From an uncultured Oscillospiraceae bacterium (GTDB lineage Bacteria; Bacillota; Clostridia; Oscillospirales; Oscillospiraceae): a stretch of 42,806 nt of DNA. The stretch is from assembly GCA_947623875.1 (NCBI GenBank), contig CANQII010000005.1, positions 1 to 42,806 of the forward strand, read 5' to 3'. The translations under genes and the position numbers were made by a program. Within the stretch, counting starts at the first letter, position 1; each line of letters begins with the position of its first letter. Positions 65-7,374 of the stretch are shown here, piece by piece. The notes under the pieces were generated by a model, which did no database searches, was not told the origin of the DNA, and worked only from the letters and a program-made list of their open reading frames with translations.

Positions 65-1846
65 CTACGGCACGCCGTTGGCGAAGAGCTCCACCTCCGG
101 CAGGTTGGAGTATACCGTTACCTTCGTAACAGCTTCCACCCGGTCCACGTAGCGCTTGCCGCAGATGTGGACGAAGGGATCGTCCGAGAGCCACGCCTTG
201 TACGCATAGAAGGCGTCCTTCTTGTACTTCCGGTCTATTGTAACGAGGCCTTTGTGGTTCTGGCCGTTCTCCCCGCCCTCCATCCGCTGGTCTGCGGCGA
301 AGTCGAACATGTTCCAGACGTGGGTGGCCCAGAGATAGGGGCGAGCGAAGAGCTGTTTGATATACTCCTCGTGGAAGTGGGCCTGGTACTCCTCGGAATA
401 GTCCCAGACCTTGGGGTCCGAGTTGTGCCAGTTCAGCGCCTCTGCCCCGTACTCCGAGCAGCCCACCGGGATGTCCGGGTGCCGGGCGTGGAAGTCGTCC
501 AGAGCCGGGCCCACCTGGTCTGTGGTGCCCACATACCAGCCGAAGTAGTGGTTCCAGGACACCACGTCCGGAATCTGGAGGTATTTCGCATCGGGATTGC
601 AGGCCTGGAGCAAGGCCATGGTGGTGCGGCGGGTGGGGTCCAACTGATGGGCCAGATCGTTGAGGAGACGGTGGTTCTCCATCATGTCCTCGTCATCCTC
701 CGGGGTGAACATGGTGATCTCGTTGGAGAGACCCCAAACCACAATGGAGGGGTGGTTGTAGCTCTGGGTGATAAGCTCCCGCATCATGGAGAGGGTGTTG
801 GCCCGGCCGCCTGGCATGTGCCGGGAGATGTACGGGATCTCCGCCCAGACGATCATGCCCTTCTCATCGGCGAGGTCGTAGAAGTACTGAGACTGCTGAT
901 AGTGGGCGAGACGGATGGTGTTGGCCCCCACCTCGCAGATCAGCTCCATATCCTCCCGGTGGTGCTCCGGAAGCAAGGCATTGCCGATGCCCCAGCGATC
1001 CTGGTGCCGGCAGACGCCGTGGAGGGGATAGGACTCGCCGTTGAGGAAGAAGCCCTTTTCCGGGTGGATCTCGAAGGTGCGGCAGCCGAACCGGGTGGAG
1101 ATGCGGTCCAGAACCGTGCCGTCTCCGTCCAGCAGCTCGGCCGTGGCGGTATAAAGGTACGGATCCTTCCGGCCGTGCCAGCGGTGAACCTTGGGAATGG
1201 TGAGGACGGCGGTGCCGGCGCAGATCGTCTCTGCCACGGGGCAGCCGCAGAGGTCTGTGAGGGCGATGCGTACCTGCTGTCCCGGCTGAAGGGGTGTGGT
1301 CCAGGTTTCCACCTTCACTTCGGCGTCTTCCCCTTGGATCGTTGGCGTGACGTGGATGCCGGGGCCGTCGTATGTGAGGAGGTCGAAATGGGACGCCGGC
1401 ACGCAGATCAGGTTCACATCCCGGTAGAGACCGCCGTAGAAGGTGAAGTCTGCGTTCTGGGGATACACTGTCTCGCTGATCCCGTTGTCTACTGTGATCA
1501 CCAGGAGATTCTCCTCCGTCATGGCCTCGGAGACGTCCACCCGCCAGGTGGAGTATCCGCCGTCGTGGTGGGCGAGATGGGTGCCGTTCCAGTACACATC
1601 TGCAGAGGCATTGGCGCCGTTCAGCTCCAGAAAGTACCGGGGACTGTCTGGGAGATCCCGTTTGGAGATGTGCTTGGCGTAGGTGCCGACGCCGCGGTAG
1701 TAGTCGTTATTGCCGTCCTGGCCGTCTATGCCGTTCCAGGTGTGGGGAAGGTTTACGAAGTTCCACCGGGGATTCACTTCGGTGGGAATGGTGTCTGCCT
1801 CCTTGGTGAAGGCCCATTTGGCGTTCAGGCTGACGATGGCTCGCAA
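65..1846 (-). CDS. Glycoside hydrolase family 2 enzyme (beta-galactosidase/glucuronidase-like), short C-terminus
   Basis: A 593-residue GH2-type glycosidase. The order is an N-terminal sugar-binding jelly roll (about 1-160, with FYGGLYRDV at 137-144), an immunoglobulin-like domain, and a TIM barrel from about residue 260. The acid/base pair is N375-E376 in WGLSNEI and the likely nucleophile is E465 in SEYGAEA. The substrate cannot be told from sequence; beta-galactoside or beta-glucuronide is typical. The start is TTG at 1846, chosen because GGAGG lies 8 nt upstream and the motif-containing reading begins there. It follows azlD by 36 bp on the same strand. No signal peptide is seen, so it is probably cytoplasmic. 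The protein stops right after VELFANGVP, where many clostridial relatives continue with another beta domain; the DNA beyond is AT-rich. The barrel is intact, so activity is possible. Confidence 0.88.
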   Translation of the reverse strand: MRAIVSLNAKWAFTKEADTIPTEVNPRWNFVNLPHTWNGIDGQDGNNDYYRGVGTYAKHISKRDLPDSPRYFLELNGANASADVYWNGTHLAHHDGGYSTWRVDVSEAMTEENLLVITVDNGISETVYPQNADFTFYGGLYRDVNLICVPASHFDLLTYDGPGIHVTPTIQGEDAEVKVETWTTPLQPGQQVRIALTDLCGCPVAETICAGTAVLTIPKVHRWHGRKDPYLYTATAELLDGDGTVLDRISTRFGCRTFEIHPEKGFFLNGESYPLHGVCRHQDRWGIGNALLPEHHREDMELICEVGANTIRLAHYQQSQYFYDLADEKGMIVWAEIPYISRHMPGGRANTLSMMRELITQSYNHPSIVVWGLSNEITMFTPEDDEDMMENHRLLNDLAHQLDPTRRTTMALLQACNPDAKYLQIPDVVSWNHYFGWYVGTTDQVGPALDDFHARHPDIPVGCSEYGAEALNWHNSDPKVWDYSEEYQAHFHEEYIKQLFARPYLWATHVWNMFDFAADQRMEGGENGQNHKGLVTIDRKYKKDAFYAYKAWLSDDPFVHICGKRYVDRVEAVTKVTVYSNLPEVELFANGVP

Positions 1847-1882
1847 GGGAATAGCCTCCTTCTATGGGGTGGGAAGCTGATA

Positions 1883-2197
1883 TCAGAGGATGAGCAGTTC
1901 TGTGAGGAAGACGGTGAGGCAGCAGAGCACGGCCACCGGGAAGAGGCCGGACCCTAGCCAGGAGGCGATGATGCCCACGATCAGGGCAGCGGCCCCGGAG
2001 ATGGGGCTGCGGGTGGCGGTGATCATGGCGGGGACCGTCATGAGAGCGAGAGTGACGTAGGGCACGTAGTACAGGAAAGAGCGGAGAAAGCGGCTCTTGA
2101 TCTGTTTGCGCAGCAGGGTGATGGGCGTCACCCGAATGGCGAAGGAGACCAGCGCCATCACGATGAGGTAGATATAGATGTTGTGGGTCTGATTCAA
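1883..2197 (-). CDS. azlD: AzlD-family branched-chain amino acid exporter subunit
   Basis: A 104-residue membrane protein with three or four hydrophobic helices and the AzlD-type segment IRVTPITLL near the N-terminus, the usual length for the family. AzlD works with the larger AzlC in exporting branched-chain amino acids. The start is taken as TTG at 2197, which overlaps the azlC stop (TTGA) and has GGAGG 10 nt upstream; the longer ORF in the track is not supported. The overlap indicates translational coupling with azlC. Confidence 0.85.
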   Translation of the reverse strand: MNQTHNIYIYLIVMALVSFAIRVTPITLLRKQIKSRFLRSFLYYVPYVTLALMTVPAMITATRSPISGAAALIVGIIASWLGSGLFPVAVLCCLTVFLTELLIL

Positions 2198-2949
2198 GAG
2201 GTGGTCGCCTCCGTTTCTCCCTCTGCGTTCTCTTGGATGGGGAAGAGGATTGCGCCGGCAGCGGCGATAAGGACGGTGAGAAGGATGGTCTGGGTGCCCT
2301 TGGGGATGGCATTGAGAATCGGCAGGGCAGAGCAGATGGCGCTGGCGGCAAAGGAGACCAGTACCAGAAGGGCCACCGCCCGGTCTCCCCGGGCGGCGGG
2401 GATGATGATGGCGAGAAACATCCCGTAGATGGCCACGCTGAAGGCGGAGGCCAGTGCCGGCGGCAGGGAGTTGCCTGCGATGACGCCCAGGGCGGTGCCG
2501 ATGGCCCAACAGGGGGCGGCCACCGAGATGGCGCCATAGGAGTAGAAAGGATCCAGGTTGCCAGGCCTTGCGATGGCGATGGCAAAGAGCTCGTCCGTGA
2601 TGTAGAAGCCCACCAACAGACGGTGTCGCAGCGGCAGGTCCGGCGCCATTCGCTGACTCAGAGCGCAGCTCATGAGGAGGTAGCGGGCGTTGGCGATGAG
2701 GGTCATGAGGGCGAGCTCCAGATAGGTGGCATTGGCTGCAATGAGGGTGAGCACAGCGTACTCACCGGCAGAGGCATTGCCTAAGGCGCTGAGCAGAAAA
2801 CCCTGCAGCGGTGAGAGACCCACATCTTTGGCTGCGATGCCCAGAGAAAAGGACACGGCAAAGTATCCGAGCCCGATGGGGATGCCCGCCTGGATGCCGG
2901 AGCGAAAGACGGCCCGCCGGCTGCTGGGGAGGGTATTGTTGGGAGGCAT
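2194..2949 (-). CDS. azlC: AzlC-family branched-chain amino acid exporter
   Basis: A 251-residue polytopic membrane protein with AzlC hallmarks: an N-terminal GIPIGLGYFAVSFSLG helix, the NARYLLMS motif near residue 87, and the YITDELFA segment. AzlC is the main membrane subunit of a branched-chain amino acid (or azaleucine) efflux system partnered by AzlD, which overlaps its 3' end. I chose the ATG at 2949 rather than 2958 because AAAGGA sits about 8 nt before it, whereas it abuts the first ATG. First gene of a minus-strand cluster azlC-azlD-GH2. Confidence 0.9.
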   Translation of the reverse strand: MPPNNTLPSSRRAVFRSGIQAGIPIGLGYFAVSFSLGIAAKDVGLSPLQGFLLSALGNASAGEYAVLTLIAANATYLELALMTLIANARYLLMSCALSQRMAPDLPLRHRLLVGFYITDELFAIAIARPGNLDPFYSYGAISVAAPCWAIGTALGVIAGNSLPPALASAFSVAIYGMFLAIIIPAARGDRAVALLVLVSFAASAICSALPILNAIPKGTQTILLTVLIAAAGAILFPIQENAEGETEATTS

Positions 2950-3225
2950 GGTACACATCCTTTGTTTGATATGAGAGATGGCTAAAGTATAGCGAAGTCT
3001 GGGGGAAAAGGAAAGAGGAAATTTTGCAGGTGAAGGGCTGCAAGAGACTGGGTGCTGGCCTCTGGGCAGCTCTTTTTTTGTGGCTTTACAGGGAAGCTGT
3101 GCGGCGGAATTTGTTTGACAGATGTATGCAAAGTAGCGGAATTTGTATTACAAATGCTATCTATTGTATTACACTAAATGAGTTAAAACATGCAGATGTG
3201 AGATGTATCGGCGAGGAAAAATGTA
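2950..3225. other. Divergent intergenic region, no gene
   Basis: No convincing gene is seen between azlC (minus) and the small plus-strand genes. The first 50 bases contain a minus-strand TATACT (plus AGTATA at 2986-2991) that could be the azlC -10 element but lacks a clear -35. The remainder is AT-rich compared with its surroundings. Confidence 0.5.
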
Positions 3226-3254
3226 TTGACTGTTGCGCTGCGATAAGCTATAAT
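3226..3254 (+). promoter_or_regulatory. Sigma-A promoter for the small Rpn-S-like genes
   Basis: TTGACT (3226-3231), a 17-nt spacer and a perfect TATAAT (3249-3254). The predicted leader of about 120-140 nt contains a possible 7-bp stem, CGCCTAT (3269-3275) with ATAGGCG (3301-3307). Confidence 0.85.
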
Positions 3255-3401
3255 ACGGGGTGAAAACTCGCCTATGTTGTTTGAAATGATTGCAGCATGG
3301 ATAGGCGTGGAAGAGGAAACATGCCGGGATGAGGCACTGCTATCAGCGGCACGCATTCAGTAATATGAGGTGACAGCGCAGTGAGACGAAAAGAGGAAGC
3401 C

Positions 3402-3752
3402 ATGTGTGGATCCATTCAATTGATCATTGAGGATGAGGTAAAGAAGGAATTGGAGCGGCGCAGAAAGGAACGGCAAAAGGCGGCAAAGAAGGCAGCGCAG
3501 CAGGCTGTGGCTGCGGCAAAGAAGGCAGAGCGGCAGGCTGCAGCTGCGGCAAAGAAGCGGGTTGCAGCTGCAGTAAAGAAGGCGTATGAAGATCGCATGG
3601 TTTCCTGCCTTCTGAAAGTGATGAAGAATTATCCCTGCAGTCTGAAAGGCGCCATGGATCTATTGGGAGTCCCAAAGAACATGCGGCCCAAGTACGGGAA
3701 ATTGGTGAAGAAGGCACGCGCTGTGCAAACGGACGAGACAGCAGCATCGTGA
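3402..3752 (+). CDS. Small protein with Lys/Ala-rich coiled coil and Rpn C-terminal-like tail
   Basis: A 116-residue protein. It starts MCGSIQLIIED, like the MCDSMRALIEK start of the next gene, and ends in AMDLLGVPKNMRPKYGKLV...ARAVQTDETAAS, which lines up with AMDFYEIPEEERPKYAALI...ARAAQTSAATAAS at the end of the Rpn nuclease gene at 4701. Between these is an insertion of about 45 residues built of AAAKKAERQ-like repeats, very basic and predicted helical. The ATG at 3402 is chosen by homology; GTG at 3381 with GAGGTGA upstream is an alternative. It lies 14 bp before the next gene, probably in one transcript from the promoter at 3226. By family it may be a stand-alone Rpn-S-like inhibitor or DNA-binding accessory; this is inference. 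Confidence 0.7.
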   Translation: MCGSIQLIIEDEVKKELERRRKERQKAAKKAAQQAVAAAKKAERQAAAAAKKRVAAAVKKAYEDRMVSCLLKVMKNYPCSLKGAMDLLGVPKNMRPKYGKLVKKARAVQTDETAAS

Positions 3753-3766
3753 AAGGACGTGTACTC

Positions 3767-3982
3767 ATGTGTGACTCAATGCGGGCACTGATCGAAAAGA
3801 AGAACCGTGAGCATGATGAAAAGAACAATGTCAGCTATATCATCCGGCTGGTAGATGAGATAGGCTTGACGGAGTCTCGGGCCATGGACATCTTCAAAAT
3901 CCCGGAGGAAGAGCGGCCCAGGTATGCAGCGCTGGTAGCAGCAGCACGCGCCGCGCAGACAGACGAGATGACAGCACCGTGA
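3767..3982 (+). CDS. Stand-alone Rpn C-terminal-domain protein (RpnS-like)
   Basis: A 71-residue protein, MCDSMRALIEKKNREHD... to ...QTDEMTAP, nearly identical to the last 68 residues of the Rpn nuclease encoded at 4701-5717 apart from a three-residue difference in length after NREHD and scattered substitutions. The start ATG has AAAGGA 9 nt upstream, and the DNA around it (GACGTGTACTCATGTGTGAC) is identical to that around the internal ATG of the nuclease gene. It therefore encodes as a separate gene what the nuclease gene can make by internal initiation. In studied Rpn systems the short C-terminal product restrains the nuclease; a stand-alone antitoxin role here is inferred. Confidence 0.75.
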   Translation: MCDSMRALIEKKNREHDEKNNVSYIIRLVDEIGLTESRAMDIFKIPEEERPRYAALVAAARAAQTDEMTAP

Positions 3983-4629
3983 GAAGATGAAAAAGAACGC
4001 CCAGGCTCAACTATCCACAAACAACACTAAACGAAATGAAAATTGAGTTTTTAGTGCAAGCATGGATACATGGTTGAAACTCAGATGGAAGCCCGTGACA
4101 TTACTGAAAGTGGCACGGGGTGATTAAGTAGATAGGAGAGTCTTGCAAATACGAATATAAGATATGTCGTTGAAACGATGACAACATTTGAATGGGCAGC
4201 CAGAGGTCTGAGACTGCGGCTGGCAGGCTTCTTCAACCGCAGCTGGGCGTAGACAGCCATCTGAAATCTGCTAACACCTTACTGAAGACATAATGAAAAG
4301 ATGGGAACTAAACAATACAAATGGACTCTATTGATCAAAAAACGAGGTGCTTGATGTAAAAGCAAAAGAAAATTAGACTAACTTTGCGAGAAAAGAACGA
4401 TATGTTGTTTTACTTGATTAAAATAGGAAATGAGCGCACATGTGCTGCACACTGAAAAAGTTTTTCTTTGGAGACGGAGGAGCCCAGACGAAGAAGAGTC
4501 CCGTTTATGGGACTATTGTCTGAAAAGGTTTGCAAAACGAAACGTTCTATCCCAAAACGGCAGAGATAAAGCAACAAAAAGTAGGAATTTACGTTTCCAA
4601 TATCCTTGGAAAAACTTTTATGAAGCTGC
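3983..4629. other. AT-rich intergenic region with an orphan operator-like palindrome
   Basis: About 650 bases with no supported gene; the ORFs listed here are shadows or lack ribosome-binding sites. At 4498-4513 lies GTCCCGTTTATGGGAC, one base away from the perfect 16-bp palindrome found upstream of four DUF5688 units at 38.6-41.6 kb. Unlike those, no extended -10 follows at 8 nt. Confidence 0.5.
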
Positions 4630-4658
4630 TTGACAGCCACCCCGCTCTGTTGTATAAT
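4630..4658 (+). promoter_or_regulatory. Consensus sigma-A promoter of the Rpn nuclease gene
   Basis: Perfect TTGACA (4630-4635), 17-nt spacer, perfect TATAAT (4653-4658). Start of transcription is expected near 4665, giving a leader of about 36 nt with GAGGGTGA before the ATG at 4701. Confidence 0.9.
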
Positions 4659-4700
4659 ACCGCCGGAAGCCAAAAGAGAGCAGAGAAGAGGGTGAGTACC

Positions 4701-5717
4701 ATGGGTATGATTGACGACCTGGCGAAGAACTACTTTGACGATGACGCTGTGGTCGCAGACACATTCAACTACTTTCTTCGGAAGATGGGATGCACCACCT
4801 TGATTGATCCGAAACAGCTTTCCAAAATAAGCACAGAGCTGGAAGTCAGCATTCGAGTGAATCGCACTGTGAGAACGATGAACCGAATTAGGGATATCGC
4901 TCGGGAGTGGACAAGGCCCGATGGCACGAAACAGATACTGGTTCTTGGCTTGGAACTGCAGTCGTTCATTCACTACGCACTGCCTCTGAAAATCTTGACC
5001 TACGATGTGTTCACCCATATCGCGCAAGCCGAGATAATCGCAGCTCCTTTGAAGGATCCTGTCAAGATTGAGAAAGGAAGCGATGGCAAACCGAAGCTGC
5101 AATTCACGGAGGACGAATTCCTCTCTAAGTTCCCGAAAGGTGCAAAGCTGGATGACGTCCTGACACTCACAGTGTACCTCGGGGAGAAGCCTTGGGACGC
5201 ACCGCTGACGTATTTCGAATCGCTCAACATGAGCGAGGACGCGAAGAAGTACAAAAGCGATATCAGGTTCTACCTCATCGACCCCAGGGAAATCGATGAG
5301 GCCGATTTCGAGGGCTTCGAGACCGAGATCGGTGATGTGTACCGCTTTCTCAAATATCGGGACGAACAATTCGTTGATTCCCTGGATGACTTCCTGCAAA
5401 CCCACATAGGGATGACTCTCAGTGAGAAAGGCGCTAAGCTACTTCTCGCTTGCGGAGTTGAAGCGAACATAACGAAACCGACTTACACAGTGAAAGGGGG
5501 ACGTGTACTCATGTGTGACTCAATGCGGGCACTGATCGAAAAGAAGAACCGTGAGCATGATGTCAACCATATCATCCGGTCAGTGGATGTGCTGGGCTGG
5601 ACGGAGTCTCAGGCCATGGACTTCTACGAGATTCCGGAGGAAGAGCGGCCCAAGTATGCAGCGCTGATAGCAGCGGCACGCGCTGCGCAGACGAGCGCCG
5701 CAACGGCTGCTTCCTGA
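4701..5717 (+). CDS. rpn: Rpn family recombination-promoting nuclease / PD-(D/E)XK nuclease (putative transposase type)
   Basis: A 338-residue protein of the Rpn (PDDEXK_2) family. The N-terminal nuclease domain shows DAVVADTFNYFL (15-26), the RDIAREW strand with D65, and the ExQ motif E85-L-Q87 in LGLELQSFIHYALP. A central part has LTLTVYLGEKPWDAPLT (154-170) and the family segment IRFYLIDPREIDEADF. A C-terminal module from M271 carries MDFYEIPEEERPKYAAL. The ATG at 4701 is chosen for its GAGGGTGA Shine-Dalgarno and its place behind a consensus promoter. Rpn proteins are DNA endonucleases linked to recombination and, in studied cases, phage defence. It stands alone, followed by a strong hairpin terminator. 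Confidence 0.88.
   Translation: MGMIDDLAKNYFDDDAVVADTFNYFLRKMGCTTLIDPKQLSKISTELEVSIRVNRTVRTMNRIRDIAREWTRPDGTKQILVLGLELQSFIHYALPLKILTYDVFTHIAQAEIIAAPLKDPVKIEKGSDGKPKLQFTEDEFLSKFPKGAKLDDVLTLTVYLGEKPWDAPLTYFESLNMSEDAKKYKSDIRFYLIDPREIDEADFEGFETEIGDVYRFLKYRDEQFVDSLDDFLQTHIGMTLSEKGAKLLLACGVEANITKPTYTVKGGRVLMCDSMRALIEKKNREHDVNHIIRSVDVLGWTESQAMDFYEIPEEERPKYAALIAAARAAQTSAATAAS
5511..5717 (+). CDS. Internal in-frame start producing a C-terminal Rpn short form (RpnS-like)
   Basis: Within the Rpn gene, an ATG at codon 271 is preceded by a strong Shine-Dalgarno (AAAGGGGG, 5494-5500, about 10 nt upstream). Translation here gives a 68-residue protein starting MCDSMRALIEKK. The same start context occurs at 3767 as a separate gene, which supports real use. 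Internal initiation giving a short C-terminal inhibitor is described for Rpn genes in enteric bacteria; extension to this gene is inference. Confidence 0.65.
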   Translation: MCDSMRALIEKKNREHDVNHIIRSVDVLGWTESQAMDFYEIPEEERPKYAALIAAARAAQTSAATAAS

Positions 5718-5924: not shown

Positions 5925-5995
5925 ATTCTCTGGCAAACCTCCCTCCCAGGCAAAAGGAGAGGGGGAGAGGCACAGGGAATTGAATATGGTTCGGG

Positions 5996-6155
5996 TGATG
6001 AAACCGAGAGAGACCGTGCAGAACGGCGCCGAAGGGGAATGCAGAAACTCTCAGGTACAAGGATCGGTTTCGGACGAAACTCCGGAAAGCATTGCGCACC
6101 GACGAGGCAATCTGTCCCCAGGGACGGAGAATCTTTCAGGTTTTGGTACGGAGGC
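5996..6155 (+). ncRNA. Tandem glycine riboswitch (two aptamers)
   Basis: Two glycine aptamers in series. Aptamer 1 has GAGAGA, GCGCCGAAGGGGAA and AAACTCTCAGGTACAAGGA, closed by GAAACCG (6000-6006) with CGGTTTC (6065-6071). Aptamer 2 has GCACCGACGAGGCAA and AATCTTTCAGGTTTTGGTACGG, closed by CTCCG (6080-6084) with CGGAG (6149-6153). The 3' side of this last helix overlaps the 5' arm of the terminator at 6150, so glycine binding should block termination and switch on the glycine cleavage operon. The arrangement matches the known ON-type glycine riboswitch class. Confidence 0.93.
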
Positions 6156-6205: not shown

Positions 6206-6285
6206 GCTGTGCTGTCTTCTGAGAACGCAGCAGCTGGCAAGCGCAGAAACAGAGCACTGAAAACTTGAAAGGAAGTGTTTGTACC

Positions 6286-7374
6286 ATGGAACGGAAGACC
6301 CCGCTGTACGACATCCATGTGGAGGAGGGCGGCAAGATTGTCCCCTTCGCCGGCTACCTGCTGCCGGTGCAGTACGGCACCGGCGTGATCAAGGAGCACA
6401 TGGCCGTGAGACAGGCCTGCGGCCTCTTTGATGTCTCTCACATGGGAGAGATCCTCTTCACCGGTCCCACGGCTCTGGCCACCCTGAATCACCTCATCAC
6501 CAACGATTATTCCACCATGCCGCTGTACAAAGTCCGCTATGGCGTGATGTGCAACGAGAACGGCGGTACCATAGACGATCTCGTGGTATACAAGTTCGGG
6601 GAGGAGTGCTACCTGGTGGTGGTGAACGCCTCCAACCGGGAGAAGGACTACGCCCATATGTGCGCCAATCTGCTGCCCGGCACCACCGCAGAGGACATCT
6701 CTGCCGGCGTGGCGCAGCTGGCCCTTCAGGGACCCAAGGCACCGGCCATTCTGCAGAAGCTGCTGCCGGAGGACCAGATCCCCAAGGGGTACTACACCGC
6801 TATCCCCAACGTGGAGATCGGTGGGATGCGCTGCATGATCTCCCGCACCGGATACACCGGAGAGCTGGGGTATGAGATCTACACCGCGGCGGAGAACGGG
6901 GTGGCGCTCTGGAAGCTGCTGCGGGAGGCCGGAGTGGAGTACGGACTCATTCCCGCAGGCCTGGGGGCCCGGGACACCCTGCGCCTGGAGGCCGCCATGC
7001 CCCTATATGGCCACGAGATGGATGAGACCATTACCCCGCTGGAGGCCGGACTGGACTTCGGCGTGAAGCTGGGCAAGGCGGAGTTCATCGGCCGGGACTC
7101 CCTCATCGCCGCCGGCAAGCCCCAACGGGTGCGGGTAGGACTGGAAGTGGTGGGCCGGGGCATCGTCCGGGAGCACCAGGACCTGTATCTAGGCGAGGAG
7201 AAGATCGGCCACAGCACCTCCGGTACCCACTGCCCCTATCTGGGCAAAGCCGTGGCCATGGGCCTTATCGATGCCGCCCACGCTGCAGTAGGTACCGAGC
7301 TGGAGGCAGACGTCCGGGGCCGCCGGGTGGCTGTGAAGGTTGTCCCGCTGCCCTTCTACACCAGGGCAAAGTAA
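6286..7374 (+). CDS. gcvT: Aminomethyltransferase, glycine cleavage system T protein
   Basis: A 362-residue T protein. It takes the aminomethyl group from lipoyl-H protein and, with tetrahydrofolate, makes methylene-THF and ammonia. Family motifs seen are TPLYDIHVEEGGKIVPFAGY at the N-terminus, VSHMGEI, the ISRTGYTGELGYEIY folate-site segment, and GLGARDTLRLEAAMPLYGHEM. Full family length. The ATG at 6286 is preceded by AAAGGAAG about 10 nt away; an in-frame TTG at 6265 is less likely. First gene of the operon below the glycine riboswitch. Confidence 0.97.
   Translation: MERKTPLYDIHVEEGGKIVPFAGYLLPVQYGTGVIKEHMAVRQACGLFDVSHMGEILFTGPTALATLNHLITNDYSTMPLYKVRYGVMCNENGGTIDDLVVYKFGEECYLVVVNASNREKDYAHMCANLLPGTTAEDISAGVAQLALQGPKAPAILQKLLPEDQIPKGYYTAIPNVEIGGMRCMISRTGYTGELGYEIYTAAENGVALWKLLREAGVEYGLIPAGLGARDTLRLEAAMPLYGHEMDETITPLEAGLDFGVKLGKAEFIGRDSLIAAGKPQRVRVGLEVVGRGIVREHQDLYLGEEKIGHSTSGTHCPYLGKAVAMGLIDAAHAAVGTELEADVRGRRVAVKVVPLPFYTRAK

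Follow-up and report, generated by a model that had tools for sequence, protein, structure and literature searches.

Among the closest described relatives of the locus studied here are the RpnLS gene-within-gene systems (COG5464), in which a PD-(D/E)XK-like nuclease, RpnL, ends in a three-helix tail that is also made separately, as RpnS, from an internal start. In its published structure, RpnAS forms a bundle of three helices, the first of them long (PMC10327210). In published experiments, the length of helix 1 sets the specificity of RpnS for RpnL, a rule drawn from one E. coli protein: RpnCS lengthened by a single repeat no longer acts on RpnCL, and the action returns when the two are matched (PMC10327210). 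E. coli also encodes RpnS separately, downstream of rpnE (ypaA) and of rpnC; the separately encoded protein is made in E. coli, and forms in which rpn and a stand-alone tail are fused have been reported (PMC10327210).

We analyzed a 42,806-nt stretch of DNA from an uncultured Oscillospiraceae bacterium (the whole of it is called the window below), in which an rpn-type gene with a candidate internal start is preceded by two stand-alone copies of its tail (Table 1). An earlier note, made from the sequence alone, knew of no description of this layout, but stand-alone RpnS genes beside rpnE and rpnC have been published (PMC10327210). Within the rpnE-ypaA pair of K-12, as between the rpn gene and its nearer copy in the window, the ribosome-binding site and start region are shared (nearly identical in K-12), the stand-alone copy has exactly four more residues in helix 1 (KLEG in K-12), the ends have diverged and identity is 77%. 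The E. coli arrangement differs in having a single copy, located downstream and without a long Lys/Ala helix, whereas the window has two, upstream and likely in an operon. Tandem rpn arrays of Clostridia (loci L025 and L096) resemble the window in their same-direction duplication of rpn material and in tails that vary by four-residue steps, but they repeat whole rpn genes and the window repeats tails only. Judging from these comparisons, what appears to be new here is the recurrence of the pattern at a second rpn of the same genome, and the four-residue length steps of the copies.

Table 1. Features of the rpn locus, in window coordinates
Feature	Position	Strand	Basis or remark
Promoter-like TTGACT-17-TATAAT site of the 3402-3767 pair	3226..3254	+	11/12
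Diverged RpnS paralogue of 116 aa in which Lys/Ala repeats extend helix 1	3402..3752	+	tail homology, model
In-frame tandem repeat of 33 nt (11 aa) within the 3402 gene, 2.4 copies, 91% matches	3480..3557	+	
AAAGGA, which overlaps the stop of the 3402 gene and may be the ribosome-binding site of 3767	3752..3757	+	sequence
Stand-alone RpnS paralogue (71 aa)	3767..3982	+	77% identity to the internal tail; helix 1 longer by EKNN (+4 aa)
Promoter-like TTGACA-17-TATAAT site of the rpn gene	4630..4658	+	12/12
rpn-type nuclease gene (RpnL, 338 aa)	4701..5717	+	PD-(D/E)XK-like core with D65, E85, Q87
AAAGGGGG, possible ribosome-binding site of the internal start	5493..5500	+	sequence; 10 nt before ATG
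RpnS-like product of 68 aa, internal start at codon 271 (ATG)	5511..5717	+	structure model, start conservation

The rpn gene and its internal start

The assignment of the gene to the Rpn family, proposed in the earlier note, is supported by its homologues. Residues D65, E85 and Q87 are invariant in an alignment of 35 of them, consistent with an N-terminal domain of the PD-(D/E)XK type and with a putative nuclease activity. PF04754 (Transposase_31/YhgA) is matched by 32 of these 35 homologues and the NCBIfam Rpn model TIGR01784 by 11 (both at E <= 0.01). The window RpnL belongs to a distant clostridial branch: its own score against PF04754 (13.5 bits) lies below the cut-off of 21, and an NCBIfam search with it gave no match. 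A search of the PDB with the RpnL model returned nothing significant, several of the top-ranked folds being PD-(D/E)XK enzymes at E > 0.1, and the defence-system HMMs of PADLOC-DB did not match either.

Relatives of the window RpnL are encoded at 29 loci in Clostridia genomes. The rpn family is scarce near the source organism (4 of 401 genomes of its family and 17 of 391 of its class) and far commoner in another family of the same class, that of locus L041 (99/250 genomes). Phage and plasmid records gave remote matches only, and viral contigs held no relatives with the pattern used. The intergenic DNA between positions 2960 and 4700 has a low G+C content (0.42-0.45, compared to 0.59 for the window), and third-position G+C is 0.63 in rpn as opposed to 0.83 in gcvT, which together suggest that the rpn block was acquired. 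Just downstream of rpn lie two glycine riboswitch aptamers (window 5995-6153), directly preceding glycine cleavage genes (gcvT, 6265-7374).

The predicted RpnL structure consists of an alpha/beta domain, a disordered linker of low confidence (residues 254-269) and a three-helix tail from residue 271 (helices 271-298, 302-308 and 313-337), with the structural break falling exactly at the internal start. The modelled tail agrees with the published RpnAS bundle (PMC10327210). The open reading frame and its coordinates confirm the earlier claim of an internal ATG behind AAAGGGGG that would give a 68-residue C-terminal product. This site is weaker than in most relatives, with a 4-nt Shine-Dalgarno match that is no stronger than synonymous codons would give, and this modest signal is what could be said for the tail being only a nuclease domain, with a fortuitous ATG and no separate product. 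We consider that very improbable: a [MV]C tail start and a ribosome-binding-like stretch of at least 4 bases occur at the same domain boundary in all 41 scored homologues (those with an assignable [MV]C tail start, a few others lacking the motif, and the relatives not being independent of one another), and an rpn gene of C. difficile was shown to make RpnS. Anatomy and conservation thus point to an internal start from which a three-helix RpnS would be translated and, by analogy with related systems, this product may inhibit the nuclease.

Tail copies upstream of rpn

The 3767 gene is an independent open reading frame with the same start context as the internal start, GTGAAAGG[GGG]ACGTGTACTCATG, as the earlier note had stated; the two leaders are identical save for the GGG indel. 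Its product matches that of the internal start at E = 3e-26 (77% identity over 70 aa), and at the DNA level 84% of a 215-nt stretch is shared with the rpn 3' end, which supports the earlier proposal that the tail was duplicated out of the gene. The similarity is unevenly distributed. There are no differences in 62 nt of the start regions (P ~2e-5 under an even spread), followed by a 12-nt in-frame insert encoding EKNN and then by about 21% DNA divergence, so that the description of the two products as nearly the same protein holds for the first 17 residues and fails beyond them. The 3767 product is 77% identical to the tail of its own neighbour vs. 33% to that of the genome's other rpn locus and, by its sequence, would be a gene of the ypaA type, separate from and homologous to the tail of the neighbouring rpn.

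The 3402 gene carries a genuine, if remote, relative of the tail, in line with the diverged version with a basic Lys/Ala insert that had been noted earlier. Its tail matches the 3767 product at E = 5e-6 and 38% identity (identities found for 3402 are about 31-38%), a resemblance that, like that of 3767 to the internal tail, far exceeds chance, and a tail HMM built from the tails of other genomes, without any sequence from the source genome, scored both the 3402 and 3767 products above all of about 500 shuffles. The model of the 3402 product (helices 2-76, 81-88 and 92-115; pLDDT 94) predicts that the three-helix fold is kept alongside in-frame repeat growth, with a helix 1 of about 75 residues, about 48 longer than that of the internal tail. 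The 11-residue Lys/Ala unit that lengthens this helix differs from the usual four-residue unit. Pfam matches of the 3402 product (PIN_12, DUF4407 and others) were below their cut-offs, mirror its Lys/Ala-rich coiled composition and were dismissed.

The two small genes had been credited with a consensus promoter each, which proved wrong: the strong site lies before 3402, and no promoter-like site of its own was found upstream of 3767. Since the 3767 gene begins 14 nt past the 3402 stop, the two are probably co-transcribed. Promoter-like sites are slightly enriched overall (5 observed vs. 3.3 in shuffles).

Recurrence and length steps at other loci

The pattern recurs in the same genome (392 contigs, completeness about 75%). 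A second rpn (locus L002, contig C34), 31% identical to the window gene, is also preceded by two tail copies (L002:887-1081 and 1129-1335), which derive from L002's own tail (61-74% match). Each copy is thus nearest to the tail of its own locus, indicating that duplication occurred separately at two loci of one genome. The first L002 copy retains 24 codons of the preceding nuclease end and a copy at L091 about 30, which suggests that such copies arose when 3' ends of rpn genes were duplicated; around the two copies in the window, the search turned up no remnant of a nuclease domain.

Helix 1 of a copy is usually longer or shorter than that of the neighbouring tail by a whole number of four-residue steps. 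The step is +4 for the 3767 gene, zero and +4 for the first and second L002 copies, +4 (RAEG) at L042, where the copy lies directly downstream of rpn, and -8 at L091, where it lies between two rpn genes. It is zero at L025, where rpn genes form a tandem array and the middle one, though broken, retains an open tail frame. In simple simulations (the copies may have been partly diverged before they separated), protein-level constraint was significant between the two L002 copies (pN/pS 0.33, P 0.014) and between the L042 copy and its internal tail (pN/pS 0.25, P 0.0008), and not between the 3767 copy and the window's internal tail (pN/pS 0.57, P 0.22).

Two further arrangements were seen. At L096 (minus strand, 1480-3880), rpn copies stand head to tail, their tails differing mainly in the number of four-residue repeats. 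At L004 (contig C285, minus strand, 388-1182 and 2-673), two Rpn-like genes lie in tandem. The one that is complete has a different reading of the E-x-Q motif (ALDLAYQ), ends just before the tail position and would therefore have no internal antitoxin.

In E. coli, internal and stand-alone helix 1 were matched in length in none of the 21 strains carrying both copies (one strain, L134, was scored by eye, its sequence being variable at the marker), and the differences were multiples of four. Chance pairing would give 1.5 matches in 21, and none with a probability of 0.16, and we therefore dropped the idea that equal lengths are avoided; drift, and not function, may account for the mismatch. In BL21 (L119), rpnE and ypaA are joined as one gene with internal repeats and the ypaA end, and single-gene rpnE/ypaA forms were common among the E. 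coli sampled.

What the stand-alone tails may be

The reading we favor, with a probability of about 0.5, is that of a gene-within-gene rpn locus whose 3' end was copied upstream, the copies encoding RpnS-type proteins that are non-cognate, or else serving as alternative cassettes for the tail. The window rpn would encode the RpnL nuclease and, from its internal start, a C-terminal RpnS. At least one upstream copying of its 3' end would have left two stand-alone RpnS paralogues, joined in one operon, that keep the three-helix shape and the start signals and are altered in helix-1 length. Their products would be expressed yet non-cognate, and not redundant antidotes for the adjacent nuclease. 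In favor of this reading are the conserved internal start, the structural break at residue 271, the invariant catalytic-type residues, the tail copies beside rpn at L002 and in other Clostridia, the four-residue length steps and the kept fold of the 3402 product. A further point is the helix-1 length of the two copies under the published repeat rule: if the rule holds here, neither 3767 (+4) nor 3402 should neutralize the adjacent RpnL. Several results weigh against it, namely the lack of significant constraint on the window copy, the chance-like frequency of mismatch in E. coli, the strength of the window's internal ribosome-binding site, which is no greater than synonymous chance, and the narrow basis of the specificity rule. 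Were the stand-alone tails non-cognate, they would not be spare antidotes, and the retention of mismatched antitoxins next to the toxin, both in E. coli and in gut Clostridia far removed from it, would call for an explanation.

The close rival, itself somewhat unlikely, is that the copies are presently functionless relics, 3' ends that remained after rpn genes were duplicated in tandem and truncated. The open tail frame of the broken L025 gene, the nuclease ends still attached at L002 and L091, tail fragments at L023 and the window copy's lack of significant constraint all speak for relics. However, start signals and reading frames are intact in all window and L002 copies, the 3402 gene grew by in-frame repeats, the L002 and L042 copies are under constraint, and nuclease-domain remnants are absent near the window copies. 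The earlier note instead saw a three-antitoxin-like layout; read in this way, all three products would neutralize the one nuclease and the upstream operon would add to the dose. Clear homology, the identical start regions of 3767 and 5511 and the production of separately encoded RpnS in E. coli (PMC10327210) are consistent with such an arrangement, but one extra repeat abolishes neutralization in the published case, which makes it doubtful for copies that are longer by four and about 48 residues, the latter (3402) also being so low in identity. That the copies probably serve this nuclease as additional antitoxins is thus not supported, and diverged RpnS paralogues that are non-cognate, or duplication leftovers, explain the locus at least as well.

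The cassette form of the favored reading is, taken by itself, improbable. The upstream tails would be silent or alternative cassettes, and recombination over the identical start region would swap a new tail into rpn. Nuclease tail and antitoxin would then change together, the pair staying matched and becoming insensitive to the old tails. The BL21 fusion looks like such a tail exchange, by deletion.
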